64,000 nt of DNA from Nitrospira defluvii (lineage in GTDB: Bacteria > Nitrospirota > Nitrospiria > Nitrospirales > Nitrospiraceae): the NCBI GenBank assembly GCA_011525625.1, contig WYAX01000016.1, positions 248,001 through 312,000 of the forward strand, in the 5' to 3' direction. The translations under genes were made by a program, and so were the position numbers. Below, piece by piece: positions 8,738-18,201 of this stretch (position 1 is the stretch's first letter; every line of letters starts with the position of its first letter). The notes beneath the pieces are model-generated. The model ran no database searches and had not been told where the DNA came from. It worked only from the letters and a program-made list of their open reading frames with translations.

Positions 8738-9370
8738 TCAGGCGTTTTGTGTGGAGGTCAAGGGCGCAGTTGGGCGCGCACGATCGATCAGCGACTGCGA
8801 GGACGATTTGGCCTGGCTGCGGAAGCGGGCCGGGGGGAGGCCGAACTCGCGTGTGAACGCGCGGTTGAAGGAGGGCTCGGACTCGTAGCCGATATCGCCG
8901 GCGACTTAGGTCGCGCTCTTCGACGTGGAGCTCAACAGTCGCGCTGCGAGGTGTAACCGCCAACGGGTGAGGTAGCCGATCGGTGTGTCTGCGAGGAAAT
9001 GCTGAAACCGTTCGGCGAGCACTGAACGGGAGATTCCGACTTCGGCAGCCAGCGTCGCGATGGTCCAGGGGCGCGCCGGTTCTCGGTGCAGGAGTGCCAG
9101 CGTTTTGCCCACATCCGGAGCGCGAACTCCGGCCAGCCATCCGGTTTGGGTGTGCGGCAACTGCGCGATATACCGTCGCAATGTTTCCACGAACAATGCT
9201 TCGGATAACTTGGCGATGACCGCCGCGCCTCCCGGGCCGGAGGCCTCCGCGTGGTGGGGGAGCGATGGGGGGATCGTCCGACTGATGAAGACCCAACGAG
9301 TGCGGCGGGCTTCCAGCTGCCTGCCGCACTCGTCGTCTGTCTGGACCGTGACCTGCAATCCTAGTGGCAC
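8738..9370 (-). pseudogene. Broken AraC-family regulator (cupin_6-type), internal stop and missing N-terminus
   Basis: Residues RPWTIATLAAEVGISRSVLA and HFLADTPIGYLTRWRLHLAA are a typical AraC HTH. Translation meets an in-frame TAA at 8906-8908 just after LLSSTSKSAT. In the same frame it continues VAGDIGYESEPSFNRAFTRE and GLPPARFRSQ, the expected second half of the DNA-binding domain, ending at TGA 8738-8740. Upstream, the AraC-type N-terminal cupin domain is almost absent: only the linker helices (AAVIAKLSEALFVETLRRYI) are recognisable. Both defects argue for an inactive gene, not readthrough. Confidence 0.85.
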
Positions 9371-9704: not shown

Positions 9705-9754
9705 TTGACAGAAACGGGCGTATCGATTACATTGATTTTGAGAATTGAAATCAA
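9705..9754 (+). promoter_or_regulatory. Sigma70 promoter with overlapping Fur-like palindrome
   Basis: TTGACA at 9705-9710, a 17-base spacer, then TACATT at 9728-9733. Immediately overlapping the -10 is the perfect inverted repeat TTGATTT (9732-9738) / AAATCAA (9748-9754) with nine bases between. The inner 15 bases TGAGAATTGAAATCA resemble a 7-1-7 Fur box (ten of fourteen positions). Position and symmetry suggest a repressor operator. The first gene start is about 47 bases downstream. The Fur assignment is inference. Confidence 0.6.
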
Positions 9755-9800
9755 CAGTGTGCGCCATGTCGAACGTGCGATGACCAGGAAGGAGTATTCA

Positions 9801-10403
9801 ATGACGCTGCAAGATTCCACAGGGACCAGTAGTGCAGCCCTGCCCACACCGGAGCGGTCTCCGGAAGCTCGATCGCAGGAGATCTCTCGCAAAGCCGCGC
9901 TGGGGAGTCCAGTCCCACGAATGAACCCAGTCGTTTTGGTGCAAGGCCGCCTCATGCCGTTGGGTGTCTCGTCGTTCTCCCACGGATGGGTCGCCTTGTG
10001 TTTTCCGGGCTCGCTCCATTCTGGAATTGTCTCGAGCGTGAATCGGCAAGCCGAGCTGTTGGCTCGCGAGGGAGTCGCGATGGTAGTCGTTCTGACGGAT
10101 GCCCGACTGTTTCGATTGTCCCAGCGTCAGGATCTCTCGTGCATCAACGTACCGATCTTGACGGACCCGTTGCGACGGCTTCACCGATGGTATGGGGTTC
10201 ACCGCCATTCTCCGTTCTCGGACCTTACCACCTTCCTCATCGATCCCGATCGGATCCTCCGATTCGCAGTCGATAGGGCACTCGATGGTACAGACTGCGA
10301 GATCCTGCGCAATCTCCTGAGGAGGACATCGAACACCTCTGGCGGGTATCAGGGCTCAACGCGGAGGAAGGAGGGATCCCATGTCTTGTGTTCATGCTCA
10401 TGA
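9801..10403 (+). CDS. Peroxiredoxin-like (AhpC/TSA-fold) protein lacking the peroxidatic Cys
   Basis: 200 residues from the ATG at 9801 with AGGAAGGAG upstream; the open frame continues about 400 bases upstream without a credible start. The thioredoxin-like core is readable: GWVALCFPG, LLAREGVAMVVVLTD, VPILTDPLRRLHRWYGV and DLTTFLIDPDRILRFAV. These parallel the peroxiredoxin order: strand, helix 2, then the xPLLSDPxRxVxxxYGV and TFLIDPxGxVR motifs. Where the peroxidatic PxxxTxxC loop is expected the sequence reads PGSLHSGIVSS, without Cys. It may be a regulatory or structural homologue. First gene of the Fur-like-box operon. Confidence 0.65.
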   Translation: MTLQDSTGTSSAALPTPERSPEARSQEISRKAALGSPVPRMNPVVLVQGRLMPLGVSSFSHGWVALCFPGSLHSGIVSSVNRQAELLAREGVAMVVVLTDARLFRLSQRQDLSCINVPILTDPLRRLHRWYGVHRHSPFSDLTTFLIDPDRILRFAVDRALDGTDCEILRNLLRRTSNTSGGYQGSTRRKEGSHVLCSCS

Positions 10404-10581
10404 TTCCCCCGTGCTCGAGATGTGTGCGTGCGGACGAATCTATCTCACGTATGGACCGGTCACCGTGGCCTTCAAGTATGCGGAGTTTGTCAGGTTCGCC
10501 CGCAACGTGGCGAGGTTGGCGGACACGGCCATTGAGAAGCATGGAGCGCAGATGCTCGCGGATACACACCAGACACACTGA
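10381..10581 (+). CDS. Small conserved-looking protein, 66 aa, CxCG motif
   Basis: The ATG at 10381 has AAGGAGG upstream and overlaps the preceding gene by 23 bases in another frame, which suggests coupling. The protein reads MCACGRIYLTYGPVTVAFKY then EFVRFARNVARLAD: a compact Cys-containing beta part followed by one helix. Cys at positions 3, 15 and 17 plus His residues could bind metal. No family I can name with confidence. Its place in the Fur-like-box operon suggests a link with iron or redox state. Confidence 0.6.
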   Translation: MSCVHAHDSPVLEMCACGRIYLTYGPVTVAFKYAEFVRFARNVARLADTAIEKHGAQMLADTHQTH

Positions 10582-10599
10582 CACCGAAGGAGACAACCT

Positions 10600-10767
10600 A
10601 TGAAAATTCGAGCTTGTCCGCTGTGCCGTCAAGTCATACTCATCCGTAGCGGTGCAACCGTAACCTGCGGCGCCTGCAGTTTTCCGATCACGGGCCACAG
10701 GCTCAGCATGCCCCGTGAGAACCAAACGGGGGGAGTCAAACGAGTCGCGGATTTTAGAGGACGCTAG
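10600..10767 (+). CDS. Tiny zinc-ribbon-like protein, 55 aa
   Basis: GAAGGAG lies seven bases before the ATG at 10600. Translation begins MKIRACPLCRQVILIRSG, then VTCGACSFPITGHRL: two CxxC pairs 17 residues apart, as in rubredoxin- or zinc-ribbon-type knuckles. It ends at TAG 10765-10767. It is 18 bases after the 66-residue gene and clearly part of the same operon. It may bind Zn or Fe. Function unknown. Confidence 0.6.
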   Translation: MKIRACPLCRQVILIRSGATVTCGACSFPITGHRLSMPRENQTGGVKRVADFRGR

Positions 10768-10812
10768 TCTGGCTTGCAGGAAGGTGAGGAAGGCCTGGAA
10801 GGAGCTGAGCCG

Positions 10813-10905
10813 ATGCGGGACGAGATGTCGATTGTGATCAGTCTGTCGATTTCCTTGGGACTGGTCCTCCTTGCGGTCGTACACGAATGGCAACGACTTC
10901 CCTAA
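10813..10905 (+). CDS. Candidate 30-aa single-membrane-span protein
   Basis: ATG at 10813 with AAGGAG upstream. The peptide is MRDEM, a hydrophobic stretch SIVISLSISLGLVLLAVV, then HEWQRLP and stop. That is one predicted transmembrane helix with a short tail. It follows the zinc-ribbon gene by 45 bases on the same strand. The ribosome-binding site and amphipathic ends are suggestive, but a frame this short could be chance. Confidence 0.4.
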   Translation: MRDEMSIVISLSISLGLVLLAVVHEWQRLP

Positions 10906-12819: not shown

Positions 12820-12987
12820 ATTCTGACAGGGTACGGTATGAGGTTGTGAATGGCGCCGTTGTCGATTCAGTGCCGACGAAATAGAACGACGACGAAAGAT
12901 TTGTCGAAGACAGACCGAAGCTGGAGGCAGGTGGAGTACGTGATGAGTCGCACCCTTTTTTACCTACGTGCAGACCACCCTATTGGT

Positions 12988-12993
12988 TATAAT
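12988..12993 (+). promoter_or_regulatory. Possible -10 element (TATAAT) before the giant gene
   Basis: A perfect TATAAT lies 91 bases before the chosen start of the 1705-residue protein. No convincing -35 hexamer is found 16-18 bases upstream. Confidence 0.35.
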
Positions 12994-13083
12994 GCGCCCG
13001 AACGCGTGAGGCGGAACATTCCGGTTGGCCGCTATGTCTGTGATGCGAGCATGAGCCATTCGATTCAGAGGAGGAACCCGAGG

Positions 13084-16000
13084 ATGTCCACTCATTCTTT
13101 TCAGGGAAATAGGGCGCACCGCGATCTGCATTTCGATCTTCGTTGGTGTGGTCCGACCCATACGACGGAAGACTACACGCTGCACGTGGGCGGCCGGTCG
13201 CATCGCCTGGCCAGGCACACTCCGGACACGCTGGCCGCTTGTTCAGTAACGGGTACGCCGACGCACTTTGCGATGCAGGTGGCGGTACAGACCGACGCAC
13301 CCCAGTTCATCTATGTGACCGTCCCTCCCAAGGTCCCCAACGGTTTTCCCACGTTGTCGTCGGTCTGTATTCACACGGCGGACGACGCCGGCAGTTATGC
13401 CGTCGACGACGTGGCAAAAGCCGTGGTGTTCATGAATCCCTCGCTGACCATGCTGACCACCGCTCCGGCGCAAACGGTGCTTGGGTATATCGGCAACAAC
13501 AACAATCTCGAACCGCTGTCGTTTCTGATCTCAACCCTGGGGTCCGCATGGTGTCAAACAGTGGGAGTGGTTGATGCCGCCGGCCAACCCGTCCTCAAGC
13601 CGAACGGGACGCAGTTTTATACCTATGATCTACACCCGTCGATCATCACCGCGAGCGCGATGCCGAGCCGGCAGAGCAAGGCGCTGATCTACAGCGATGC
13701 GGCGCTTCAAGGCACGCGCTGGACAGTGCTGCCGGGAGTAAGTGTGCTCGACATGAACGCGCAGAACACCACCGCGGAAGCGTGGCCAAGGGCGAAGCCG
13801 GCCGGACCGGCCGGCAGGCAGCCACCCGGGAACCGCGACGGATACCACGTAGCGGTCCAGGACGGAGGCCCGAATTACGGTCTGTCCGTCGCGGTGAAAT
13901 CCTTGAGCGAGAACAATGGCAACATCGTCATCGATCTGACGGTCAGCAACAGCTACATTCGTCACACGTCAGTGTTCGTGAGTTTCTTACAGGCCGACGG
14001 TGGCACGCCTATTCCGGTGACGAACGACGCGTGGCTCAAACAGGTATTCGGCCTGTGCGCACCGTGGATCAGCGATTGTTTAAATTGGTTGCTGCAGAAC
14101 GGCCTGGACAGCAGCGCGTTGTTGGGCACCAACACGCTCAAGTTTCTGGGTTCGGTGGGTGCGGAGAGCACGTTTCTGGGCATTCCGGTCAAAGCGGCCA
14201 ACACGGAGTTCACCTTTGCCTTACCGAATAACGGCTCCGCGGGCAAGATCCGTATTCTGGTGGGGAGCCTTGGTGTGACGTCCGGCAACGACTGCGATCC
14301 GGTGGCGGCGTGGTTCGGGTTATCGCTGACCGCATTTATCGACCTGGCAGTTCCGACATTCGCACTGTTGCTTGCGGCGGGTGTGCAGACGAACGCTCTC
14401 TTCGACAAGATGTTCAAGGACGTGAGTGTCCTGTTGCCCATCGCCAGCAACGTGTATGCCTCGATCAAGGATCTCTTCACGGACCCATCCAAGGTGGGCA
14501 AGGACATCTCTTCGTTGGTTCTCACCCTCGGGAATGTCCTGGTGAAAAGTGTGCTCACGAAGCCGGACGTGCTCGCGTCGCTGGCAGCGTATTTCGGCAC
14601 CGAGGAGGCCGAGGAAGCCATTCCTTTCGTGGGTTGGGGCTTCAAGGTGCTGGCCATCGAGGCCACGGTGGAGCAGCTCGCACAGACTGTGGGCGAGGTC
14701 GTCGGCTCCCCGCGGGTGGTTGAATTCGATCTGCAGGTAACCATGGACGCGCAGATCACCGTGGCGCCGGAACAGGCGTTTCCGGACAATGCGAGTTCGT
14801 TCACGATCACGGCACAGTACACCGGAACTACGACGCGTACCTACTCCGGCACCATGCCACGCGACAAAGTGCCCGGCATCGTCGTGGACTGGAAAGACGT
14901 GCCGGTAGGCGGCAAGGTCAGCTTTGTGGTCGCGATGTTCGATACAAACGGATGGGGCGTGGGCAAGGGGCAGGCCGGTCCGTTCGACAACGTACTCGGC
15001 GGACACCCGGTCTTTACTGCCACCGTGACGGTGAAGCAGGAGTTGTATCCGTTGACGGCCGATACCATCTATCAACATAGGCAGCTGCTTCAATATCAGG
15101 GGGGATATCAGTGGGTGCCGGAAGCGCAGGCGCCCACTCAGACGGCGGCAAACTTGGGTACGGGGTCCGACGGCGGATTGGAGGGCCTAGGGAACATTAC
15201 GCTGACCGATGATCTCGGGGTGTTGGGATATGTCTGGGAGGCCTCGGGGCAGGGGATGCCGCCCCCCATGGGCGGCGGCGGGGGCACGCCTGAGCTCTAC
15301 ACTATGAGCAATCTCGGGTACCGACCGATTCCAGGCGGCGACCCCACACACTGGCCGGATGCTGGATACATGACCGCACCGGAGGGGTACTCCGGGGCGC
15401 CGATTCCGCTCTACGTGCGCACGGCGCCAGGCGCCGGGTCCAGCGCGCCGAGGTTTCTGTATCTCGATCCCAGCGGAGATAAGGACGGGGGCTATCACTT
15501 GCGCGAAGTCACGCCGGTAACGGATCAAGCGGTGCCCATGGGCGATGCTCGACGGCAATTCAACCTTGCCACAGGCAGGAGCTGGGGCCGGTTCGCGATA
15601 CTGCCCACCTCGATGGCGATTCACTCCAACGGGTATGTGGTCGCCGTGAATTCAAGCTGCGACCACTTGCTGATTCTCGCCCTGCCGACAGGGAGTTCAG
15701 CCGATGCCGATGCACCCTGGGCATCGGCTCCGCTCCAACCGGGCACGGCGCCGGGGAGACTGCTGGCGCCGGCTCTGGTGGCCATCCGTCCGGATCAAAC
15801 GATGCTGGTGCTGGAAGCAGGCAATCAACGCATCCAGGCGTTCAGCCGTGGAGGTCACCCCGTGCCGGTATTTTCTGCTAGGAAGCCGTCTTTCTGGTTC
15901 CCGCTCATCTCCCATGCCGCGCCGAATAAAACCCTGTACCTCTCCATGAGCGTGGATGTCGCCAATTACGCATTCGTTCTCAGTCAAGTCGGCAATGGGT

Positions 16001-18201
16001 ATGACGCCGGAGATTTCTATCTCGATGTCTACACCCCCACCGGTACGATTCTGTTCTCCCAGCAAGGCCTGAATGCCGCCGGCCTGACCGTGGATCTCTG
16101 GCGCAATCTGTACACGCTCAATTATCAACAAATCGCCGGACCGAGCGGCCGCCCGGAGCCGTCAATCAGCGAATACATTCCGTCGACTCCGAAAGTCGAG
16201 CCGCGAGCCTTGCAAGGAGACGCGGTGGCCGACCCGCCGCAAGTCGCCAGGTGGCGATTTTGGACGGAGGGTACCGGGTACGTGCAGCAGTTTCCTAATG
16301 GGTCAACAGGCGAATACGGTCCGGCCATTGTGGGGCTTTCGGACAAAGTCGACTACTGGGATATCTTCGATCTCGGCGGCGGGAATATCGCGCTGGGGAT
16401 CCAGCTGACCGACTCCGATGGCAAACTGGTCATGGCGTACTGGAATTCGCATTACGCCATGCCGGGCGGGGAAACCAAGGGCGGCATGCTCTTGTGGGAA
16501 AACGACATGGGCTTTGCCTCCAACAAGATTGGAGACGTACAAACGTTCAAGTTGATCAATATGGGGGCCGGGCGGTTCGCGCTTCAAATCACCGCAGGTC
16601 CGAATGCCGGCCAGTATCTCATGGGCCAGCAGGGCGGGTGGTATGTCTATGAATGGGGGTTTGGAAGCGGAAGCCTCTTCGCGATGCCACACGATGGGCC
16701 GCCATTGTCATTCGGGCTCTTGGCAGATTGCGATCAGCTTCCGATGCTGAAGATTACGCAGTCCGGCTACTTCCTTCAGCTTGGGGGCAAGGACCTCACC
16801 GGCTGCATGTTGAAAGACATGCGCCATTGCACGCTCGATGGCGCGACGCTGAGCGGAATCGCCACCCTGGCGCAGGCCGACTTTACCAGCGCCTCCCTTA
16901 AGAAAGCCGTCCTGTCCGGCCTGGACCTCAGCCACGCGCTGACCTGGAAGCAGGCTGACTTCACGGGCACGGATCTGAGCACGATCAAGAGCGCCGCGGG
17001 CGCGCATCTGGAAGGCGCCATCTTCAACGCCGCCACGCTTGGCCTGGTGTCCTACGCGGGTGCGCATCTTGCGGCGGCAAAATTCACGGTTGCCGGTGGA
17101 ATACCCGCCAACCTGACCGGCACAATCTTCACCGGCGCCGATCTCACCGGGGCTGATTTCACGGGCGCCACTCTCGTGGGTACCGACTTCCGCGGCGCCA
17201 TTCTGCATGGGACGATGTTCGATGGCTGCGATCTGACGCACGCCTTATTTGACAATGAACCGAACTTCACGCGTGCGACGACAGGGCGGACGACGTTCCA
17301 TGCGGCCGTGGTGCCGTTCTCCATCTTAGGAACAAACTGGACGTATTTGGACTTAACGTCAGCGACCATCACGGGCCTTCCCGATGCGATCCCCAAGTTG
17401 GTGGCCGATCAGGCGTTGCTTCCCGACGACTTCAATCTGCGCAATAAAGACTTCACCTGTTCCGGCGGCCCCGGCGCCTCGTTCCGAGGCACTCGCATGT
17501 ATGGTATTCAGCTGCAAGGCGCCAACCTGCAGGGAGCCCAGTTGCAAGGCGCGCTGCTCAAAAGCGCCAAGCTCGATGGGGCCAACCTGACCATGGCGGA
17601 CCTGACCGCCGCCTGGCTGATCGTTGAAACCGCCACACCGAGCACGCCGAAAGGTAAACTCGAGGCGGCCTCCCTCATTCAAACATTTTTGTTCAATACG
17701 GTGTTGGATCAAGCCCACTGCGACGGGGTGGATTTCACCGGTGCCATGTTCGCGACGAGTCTAGTCAGTACACAACCGGCCAGCGCCGAGAAGGCGTTCA
17801 TGAACGATGCCAAGTTTAATGATGCCTGGGTACTGGCGACGAATTTCAACGGCGCTCAGCTTTCAGGGGCTAATTTTGCCAACGCGCATCTGATCGGTGC
17901 CACGTTTCAGAACAGCGGATCGGTGCAAACCCAGTTGACTCCGTCGAATCGAGACGGGAGCGATGCGAGTAGCGCGCACGCCGACATCAGAGGGACCGAT
18001 TTCACCGGCGCCAACATGGACGGAATCGACATGATCGGGGCTATTGTCGGGGCCTCAGGCGGTTTCTTCGAGAGAAAATGTACAGGATATGACCACGTGA
18101 GTATCCCCGTGGCGTTCAACTACGGCCCGACACTGTTCGGCAATACGACGCCCAACACCAAGTGCCCCGACGGCAATTCCGGCCCCTGTCACGTCGCCTA
18201 A
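13084..18201 (+). CDS. Giant multidomain protein: unknown N-terminal region, NHL-like propeller, pentapeptide repeats (1705 aa)
   Basis: The start is the ATG at 13084 with GAGGAGG upstream; the frame extends back to 12850 but that part is unlike protein. No signal peptide. Residues 1-~230: unknown beta-rich domain. ~440-560: long hydrophobic/helical stretch (SLTAFIDLAVPTFALLLAAG). ~560-670: beta domain. ~830-1010: NHL/propeller-like repeats (RLLAPALVAIRPDQTMLVLE, GNQRIQAFSRGG). ~1080-1230: a beta region with FALQITAGPNAGQYLMG. ~1235-1650: many pentapeptide A(D/N)LxX units (TGADLTGADFTGATL, LQGANLQGAQLQGALL), interrupted twice by irregular segments. The C-terminal end has two Cys. The right-handed beta-helix of pentapeptide repeats usually mediates protein contacts. 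Role unknown. Confidence 0.8.
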   Translation: MSTHSFQGNRAHRDLHFDLRWCGPTHTTEDYTLHVGGRSHRLARHTPDTLAACSVTGTPTHFAMQVAVQTDAPQFIYVTVPPKVPNGFPTLSSVCIHTADDAGSYAVDDVAKAVVFMNPSLTMLTTAPAQTVLGYIGNNNNLEPLSFLISTLGSAWCQTVGVVDAAGQPVLKPNGTQFYTYDLHPSIITASAMPSRQSKALIYSDAALQGTRWTVLPGVSVLDMNAQNTTAEAWPRAKPAGPAGRQPPGNRDGYHVAVQDGGPNYGLSVAVKSLSENNGNIVIDLTVSNSYIRHTSVFVSFLQADGGTPIPVTNDAWLKQVFGLCAPWISDCLNWLLQNGLDSSALLGTNTLKFLGSVGAESTFLGIPVKAANTEFTFALPNNGSAGKIRILVGSLGVTSGNDCDPVAAWFGLSLTAFIDLAVPTFALLLAAGVQTNALFDKMFKDVSVLLPIASNVYASIKDLFTDPSKVGKDISSLVLTLGNVLVKSVLTKPDVLASLAAYFGTEEAEEAIPFVGWGFKVLAIEATVEQLAQTVGEVVGSPRVVEFDLQVTMDAQITVAPEQAFPDNASSFTITAQYTGTTTRTYSGTMPRDKVPGIVVDWKDVPVGGKVSFVVAMFDTNGWGVGKGQAGPFDNVLGGHPVFTATVTVKQELYPLTADTIYQHRQLLQYQGGYQWVPEAQAPTQTAANLGTGSDGGLEGLGNITLTDDLGVLGYVWEASGQGMPPPMGGGGGTPELYTMSNLGYRPIPGGDPTHWPDAGYMTAPEGYSGAPIPLYVRTAPGAGSSAPRFLYLDPSGDKDGGYHLREVTPVTDQAVPMGDARRQFNLATGRSWGRFAILPTSMAIHSNGYVVAVNSSCDHLLILALPTGSSADADAPWASAPLQPGTAPGRLLAPALVAIRPDQTMLVLEAGNQRIQAFSRGGHPVPVFSARKPSFWFPLISHAAPNKTLYLSMSVDVANYAFVLSQVGNGYDAGDFYLDVYTPTGTILFSQQGLNAAGLTVDLWRNLYTLNYQQIAGPSGRPEPSISEYIPSTPKVEPRALQGDAVADPPQVARWRFWTEGTGYVQQFPNGSTGEYGPAIVGLSDKVDYWDIFDLGGGNIALGIQLTDSDGKLVMAYWNSHYAMPGGETKGGMLLWENDMGFASNKIGDVQTFKLINMGAGRFALQITAGPNAGQYLMGQQGGWYVYEWGFGSGSLFAMPHDGPPLSFGLLADCDQLPMLKITQSGYFLQLGGKDLTGCMLKDMRHCTLDGATLSGIATLAQADFTSASLKKAVLSGLDLSHALTWKQADFTGTDLSTIKSAAGAHLEGAIFNAATLGLVSYAGAHLAAAKFTVAGGIPANLTGTIFTGADLTGADFTGATLVGTDFRGAILHGTMFDGCDLTHALFDNEPNFTRATTGRTTFHAAVVPFSILGTNWTYLDLTSATITGLPDAIPKLVADQALLPDDFNLRNKDFTCSGGPGASFRGTRMYGIQLQGANLQGAQLQGALLKSAKLDGANLTMADLTAAWLIVETATPSTPKGKLEAASLIQTFLFNTVLDQAHCDGVDFTGAMFATSLVSTQPASAEKAFMNDAKFNDAWVLATNFNGAQLSGANFANAHLIGATFQNSGSVQTQLTPSNRDGSDASSAHADIRGTDFTGANMDGIDMIGAIVGASGGFFERKCTGYDHVSIPVAFNYGPTLFGNTTPNTKCPDGNSGPCHVA

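Follow-up and report, generated by a model that had tools for sequence, protein, structure and literature searches.

The genus Nitrospira has a key place in nitrification and relies strongly on iron enzymes. Bfd-type ferredoxins free iron from bacterioferritin, and their CxC and a second CxxC are the ligands of a [2Fe-2S] cluster. As described in the accessible part of PMC7760384, the Bfd-bacterioferritin system of Pseudomonas is Fur-regulated and of the iron-starvation type. Bacillus subtilis places both an RNA and tiny proteins under Fur control, namely the small RNA FsrA and the small proteins FbpA, FbpB and FbpC, and the Fbp proteins have been proposed to act as regulators in the iron-sparing response (accessible part of PMC7430163). 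We found no description of the operon or the box treated below in the accessible parts of these two papers or of PMC8115632, PMC12542776 and PMC12903955, the last of which names Bfd once elsewhere in its text. A search of titles and the beginnings of abstracts in the open-licence literature found no paper with the Fur regulon of Nitrospira as its topic.

Here we analysed a 64-kb stretch of Nitrospira defluvii DNA (hereafter the window), which contains what is probably a Fur-repressed iron-starvation operon for small metal-binding proteins and a peroxiredoxin (Prx) derivative that is not a peroxidase. Its predicted sigma70-type promoter (TTGACA-17-TACATT, 9705-9733, plus strand) agrees with the consensus at 10 of 12 positions; as promoter-like sites number two in 3.5 kb against 0.8 expected, this match is weak by itself. 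The end of the -10 element is overlapped by the Fur-like box TTGATTTTGAGAATTGAAATCAA (9732-9754, plus strand), a 7-9-7 palindrome (TTGATTT-N9-AAATCAA) with 100% complementary arms. Four closely packed genes follow on the same strand. The prx-like gene (9801-10403; Shine-Dalgarno site read from the sequence at 9786-9794) encodes a 200-aa protein derived from AhpC/Prx1, with a conserved Cys67 and no peroxidatic Cys. Its end is overlapped by 23 nt by the start of p2 (10381-10581; Shine-Dalgarno 10368-10375), which encodes a 66-aa CxCG protein. The next gene, p3 (10600-10767; Shine-Dalgarno 10586-10592), encodes a 55-aa zinc-ribbon-like protein with two CxxC motifs, and p4 (10813-10905; Shine-Dalgarno 10797-10804) a hydrophobic peptide of 30 aa. 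The initial annotation had read this region as a promoter overlapped by a perfect palindrome at 9705-9754, followed by the peroxiredoxin homologue, an overlapping 66-aa CxCG gene, a 55-aa two-CxxC gene and a 30-aa membrane peptide, each with its own Shine-Dalgarno site. Promoter, palindrome and tiny genes are all in place, and by eye an AAGGAG-type Shine-Dalgarno site stands ahead of all four genes. An Rfam scan of the 64-kb window returned one tRNA and no other match. Elsewhere in the window we noted, by eye, a very long ORF of 1783 aa (12850-18201, plus strand) whose C-terminal part resembles pentapeptide repeats, and a 154-aa frame (8906-9370, minus strand) that resembles the end of an AraC-type regulator and is possibly a remnant.

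Inverted pairs are frequent in such DNA (10 were reported in 1.5 kb), and because short palindromes are common it is conservation, not symmetry, that raises the box above chance. Aligned upstream regions have a 23-mer in common, with the consensus ATGATATTGAGAATTGATATCAT, and by eye the central 19 bases of this 23-mer agree at 14 of 19 positions with the E. coli Fur consensus. Using a matrix built without the window sequence, and with the identical site of locus L002 also excluded, the window box scored 37.3 bits; the next-best site in the window (the reverse strand of the box excepted) scored 4.8 bits, and the best score in 30 Markov-simulated 64-kb windows was 17.5. We then define the genus set as the genome of the window plus 28 others. 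An 8-site matrix gave more than 25 bits at 27 of 43 loci of the genus, a count that includes its own training sites, and at 16 of them there was no box above this score; the best score in shuffled DNA of equal length was 16.9. A pattern search allowing up to three mismatches found 46 box sites in 27 of the 29 genomes, and its reversed control found none.

The genes behind these sites point to the regulator. By position, genes of the same unit (the cassette) stand directly behind 27 of the 46 sites. The form TGATATTGAGAATTGCTATCA is present at 11 sites, and the seven of those that were fetched all precede a TonB_C protein; the box site of L122 also precedes a TonB protein, and a TonB gene lies behind all eight non-cassette sites checked for TonB. 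One genome, G014, has two boxes, the first before an ECF sigma gene and the second before a TonB receptor of the siderophore type with SbnA behind it, the SbnA match passing its curated cut-off. Beside the box of genome G002 (L116) no recognisable iron gene was found, and four of the 46 sites, all with three mismatches, have no assigned target (L123 and L124 were fetched, the former with no clear target). The genome of the window itself has two boxes at up to three mismatches, namely those of the operon described here and of a sister locus on contig C3. As both stand at members of the cassette family, the connection with iron genes is drawn from relatives. With TonB, siderophore-receptor/sbnA and ECF-sigma genes as partners of the box, the regulator is most likely Fur, and we think it very probable that Fur is the protein that binds it. 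A Fur-type box lies over the promoter of the operon and is common to iron genes, those of relatives, by which comparison iron control of the operon is well supported. The genome of the window has four Fur-family genes, and a Fur homologue (G000:C32:703563-703916) adjoins a gene for a solute-binding protein of the iron-ABC type. Matches to the E. coli-type Fur consensus were also sought in this genome; the three places found lie inside genes, judging by the ORFs, and were set aside.

The initial annotation had left the choice between iron and peroxide control open. The iron half is well supported by the partners of the box in relatives, and it also fits the Bfd-like and fecI/fecR genes in the cassette gene run of some of them. 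The peroxide half gained no supporting site: no peroxide-defence gene was seen behind the box among the sites examined, of which this genome contributes two, with four three-mismatch sites lacking a target. It would be quite improbable, in our judgement, for the box to be read by PerR or Zur and for the operon to answer peroxide or zinc. Either signal would go with zinc-ribbon products and a relative of Prx, and one of the four Fur-family genes is PerR-like; it has a rubrerythrin-like gene behind it and is separated from the sister locus by about 4 kb. However, no further box scoring over 11 bits occurs in the stretch with these two genes, and the TonB, siderophore receptor/sbnA and ECF sigma genes that partner the box in relatives speak for Fur.

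Within the genus set, p3 is present in 27 of 29 genomes and p2 in 23, while 14 have a prx-like match, the weaker matches including true AhpC (e.g. at L081). The 43 loci of the genus combine these genes in several ways: prx-like, p2 and p3 (13 loci), p2 and p3 (13, three with a truncated p2), p3 alone (12), prx-like and p3 (2), p2 alone (2) and a true AhpC (1). Many loci have an extra front gene, p0, encoding a ribbon of the form CxxC...CxxC, and a hydrophobic ORF like p4 follows p3 at 24 of 40 loci scanned (excluding a 25th, at L093, which lies much further off). The window-type cassette occurs in Nitrospira sp. CR1.2, UBC2, S0bin1_add and MAG_266. The tiny genes, whose lack of conservation would have spoken against the initial annotation, are conserved in the genus as well as in the relatives described below, and the same gene order, sought in other Nitrospira, was found as a conserved unit. 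Three species (L083, L084 and L085) share one truncation of p2 in their p2-p3 pair, lack a box and have near-identical surroundings, which suggests recent transfer.

The members of the cassette are not equally constrained. In the single genome pair compared (G000, the genome of the window, and G010), and for genes as short as these, dN/dS was 0.06 for both p2 and p3, 0.24 for p4 and 0.42 for prx-like. Taken with the locus counts, this gives p2 and p3 the look of a conserved core, with prx-like as the loosest member: constraint is strong on p2 and p3 and slack on prx-like, a gene that many loci have lost. In Nitrospira sp. UBC2 (G015, locus L101, counted above among the loci with all three genes), prx-like is frameshifted, alongside an intact box and intact p2, p3 and p4. 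Such figures could mean that prx-like is a decaying passenger and that p2-p3(-p4) does the work, for instance as zinc-ribbon regulators that bind RNA or protein in iron sparing. We regard this as rather unlikely. The dN/dS values of prx-like against p2 and p3, the 13 loci with p2 and p3, the 12 with p3 alone, the frameshift at L101 and weak zinc-ribbon matches of p3 to ribosomal and transcription proteins would all suit a passenger, but prx-like with the same Cys67 is found at 12 of 20 loci outside the genus, and this recurrence implies that the gene has been kept for long.

These 20 loci come from a wider search, in which the p2 profile was compared with 245 genomes of the phylum and matched 38, from 11 genera with that of the window counted. 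The order p0-prx-p2-p3 recurs in them, whole or in part, and 12 of the 20 have a box of at least 23 bits on the gene strand. In relatives the unit reads box-(bfd)-p0-prx-like-p2-p3-p4. Bfd-like ORFs (CxC...CCGxC) stand ahead of the cassette at seven loci, two of them in the genus of the window; three of the seven pass Pfam Fer2_BFD and four have no Pfam match at E <=0.001. An eighth ORF picked up with them is a p2 and was not counted. At L172 the run ends with ECF sigma and FecR genes (fecI/fecR) after p3, an arrangement seen once. The site TTGATATTAATAATGATTATCAA of L182, a locus from another family, seems by eye to resemble a classical Fur box more closely. Mobile cargo was considered and rejected, as p2 had no match in 72,556 plasmid records or in viral contigs.

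The conserved residues of p2 and p3 include candidate metal ligands. Ten columns are invariant in 16 aligned p2 proteins, including both Cys of the CxC. A Cys-His pair ends 18 of the 20 p2 proteins outside the genus at the extreme C-terminus, as it does most p2 of the p0-type loci of the genus; the window-type p2 has no Cys-His end and has an N-terminal CxH (MSCVH) instead. A metal site formed by the CxC plus C/H residues is possible. We also considered p2 as a Bfd and rejected this, since it has a single CxC, lacks a second CxxC and matches nothing in Pfam. Nine of 16 p2 proteins weakly match DUF6686 (PF20391; best E 2.1e-4); the window p2 is unmatched, and that of L076 scores 17.2 bits, short of the cut-off of 23.9. 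A literature search found no paper on DUF6686. In p3, C6, C9, C23 and C26 are invariant in 22 aligned proteins and form the two CxxC knuckles by which a zinc ribbon is recognised. For p3 there are zinc-ribbon matches to ribosomal and transcription proteins, all of them weak. From these motifs we infer that p2 and p3 would bind metal through their conserved Cys/His.

Peroxiredoxins have their peroxidatic Cys in a PxxxTxxC motif. The prx-like protein of the window matches AhpC-TSA (PF00578) with E 2.3e-5 and 24.8 bits, 1.2 bits short of the cut-off of 26, and all 13 members used for a prx-like profile match PF00578 at E <=0.1. Run against the PDB, this profile retrieves typical 2-Cys peroxiredoxins, with peroxiredoxin-2 (7kj1) as the best match (E 2.5e-13). 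Ancestry in the peroxiredoxins is thus indicated by profile similarity to the AhpC/Prx1 domain. An AlphaFold run on three sequences gave a mean pLDDT of 37 and an unusable model, so the fold assignment rests on sequence profiles.

We aligned 26 prx-like proteins, with the AhpC of the window's own genome as the column reference. None of the 26 has a Cys at the peroxidatic column, where there is a gap instead (the placement is ambiguous for L179, which has a Cys beside the gap), and all of them lack the loop that carries the TxxC motif. In contrast, the column of the window's Cys67, which lies in the preceding strand, has Cys in 25 of 26 (Ser in L079), and 15 have a Cys within the last 12 residues. 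The label "Cys-less" given in the initial annotation was wrong, as by eye the window protein has five cysteines (67, 113, 166, 197 and 199) and lacks the peroxidatic one alone; the broader claim of a peroxiredoxin homologue without this residue agrees with both the profiles and the alignment. Judged from that alignment, prx-like cannot be a classical peroxidase and is a derivative of a former peroxidase whose active site has been lost. "Non-enzymatic", as the protein was also called, fits as far as peroxidase activity is concerned and is less secure beyond it, for the conserved relocated Cys could allow another activity. In our view Cys67 would be a point of binding or of redox contact. That prx-like is still a thiol enzyme, in which Cys67, with or without the C-terminal Cys, replaces the site (as a relocated peroxidase, a reductase or a disulfide partner), strikes us as unlikely: the occupancy of the Cys67 column and the frequency of a Cys near the C-terminus would favour it, although the TxxC loop is missing throughout and prx-like is the least constrained member of the cassette, absent or broken at many loci. 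We found no paper that pairs "peroxiredoxin-like" with "lacks the peroxidatic cysteine", and none joining "peroxiredoxin", "peroxidatic cysteine" and "pseudoenzyme".

In the p0-type loci, the box and p0 are separated by R1, a structured RNA that is conserved and about 175 nt long. It is present in 25 of the 29 genomes of the genus set, with one strong copy in each; that of the window's genome is at the sister locus (L080:2594-2768, equal to G000:C3:171093-171267). The window has no R1, merely a chance-level match of 17 nt elsewhere. With 49 pairs evaluated on 25 sequences, pairing is seen in 94.1% of cells, a value that falls to 36-44% when the partners are slid, and 19 pairs show two-sided changes against a shuffled mean of 9.4, with 0 of 500 shuffles as high; the structure was drawn partly from the same 25 sequences, which favours structure in these figures. 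With stricter filters in a 118-genome sample of the phylum, R1 was found in five of the six listed members of the genus, and the rest of the sample gave one weak match (G061, E 0.002). G014 has a second copy (47 bits) behind a box and ahead of the ECF sigma gene; this stretch (L117:1-7000, G014:C25) represents a Nitrospira siderophore locus. No Rfam match was found for the R1 leaders, and R1 could act either as a small RNA under Fur control or as a leader. The 10 kb around the sister locus (L118, G000:C3:170000-180000) hold PerR-like, rubrerythrin-like and Fe-S protein genes about 4 kb from it, and its p0 appears degraded.

Other elements were noted near the cassettes. Rfam families above threshold were tRNAs alone, and sub-threshold matches (microRNA and a few other families) were judged to be chance. 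Genes for tRNA-Arg(CCG) and tRNA-Lys(CTT) lie upstream at six of seven loci scanned, and the seventh has tRNA-Lys only. By eye, most p0-type loci (e.g. L089, L063 and L098) have a conserved element resembling GGAAAGTAAACATTCC near the -35, 25-40 nt before the box, which is possibly an activator site. In another genus (L170, L171, L172, L174, L176, L177 and L178), a different conserved leader element of the approximate form GAGGCCAGAGGTC...GACCGGAGCCCAAGG...CCTTGGGCTTT lies between the box and p0; by eye it looks like a terminator or attenuator, and six of these loci (L177 excluded) gave no Rfam match for it.

We propose that, when iron is ample, Fur would occupy the box at 9732-9754, covering the -10 element and the likely transcription start, and would block transcription. 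When iron is low, the box would be freed, and prx-like, p2, p3 and p4 would be expressed from one mRNA, with prx-like and p2 coupled by their 23-nt overlap. The small Cys proteins would then act on intracellular iron or Fe-S, along with the membrane peptide and, at loci that retain it, the Prx-derived protein. Handling of intracellular iron or Fe-S clusters in starvation is the likeliest function of the cassette proteins, and we put it forward tentatively, because the biochemical role is read solely from the company they keep (Bfd-like, TonB, FecI/FecR) and from their motifs. The wider idea of a lineage-specific, Fur-controlled programme for sparing or mobilising iron, with a genus-core RNA, a tiny Cys/His kit (p0/p2/p3/p4) and a Cys-relocated peroxiredoxin, and with no described counterpart, is doubtful at present.

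The box offers a handle on the Nitrospira Fur regulon, and the operon draws attention to conserved small proteins, to a peroxiredoxin that is not a classical peroxidase and to a structured RNA at sister loci. With FsrA and the Fbp proteins of Bacillus, the likeness (an RNA and tiny proteins under Fur control) is a functional analogy alone, with no sequence relation seen; here, R1 lies in the leader region of the sister loci and is absent from the window operon. With the Fur-regulated bfd/fecIR operons, the cassette has in common a Fur-like box and, in some relatives, Bfd-like and FecI/FecR genes. However, we found no described counterpart for the cargo of p0, p2, p3, p4 and prx-like, and the window operon has no bfd. 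For the typical 2-Cys peroxiredoxins AhpC/Prx1, the profile match of prx-like covers most of the domain; the difference is that prx-like lacks the loop of the peroxidatic Cys and has conserved a Cys in the preceding strand instead.
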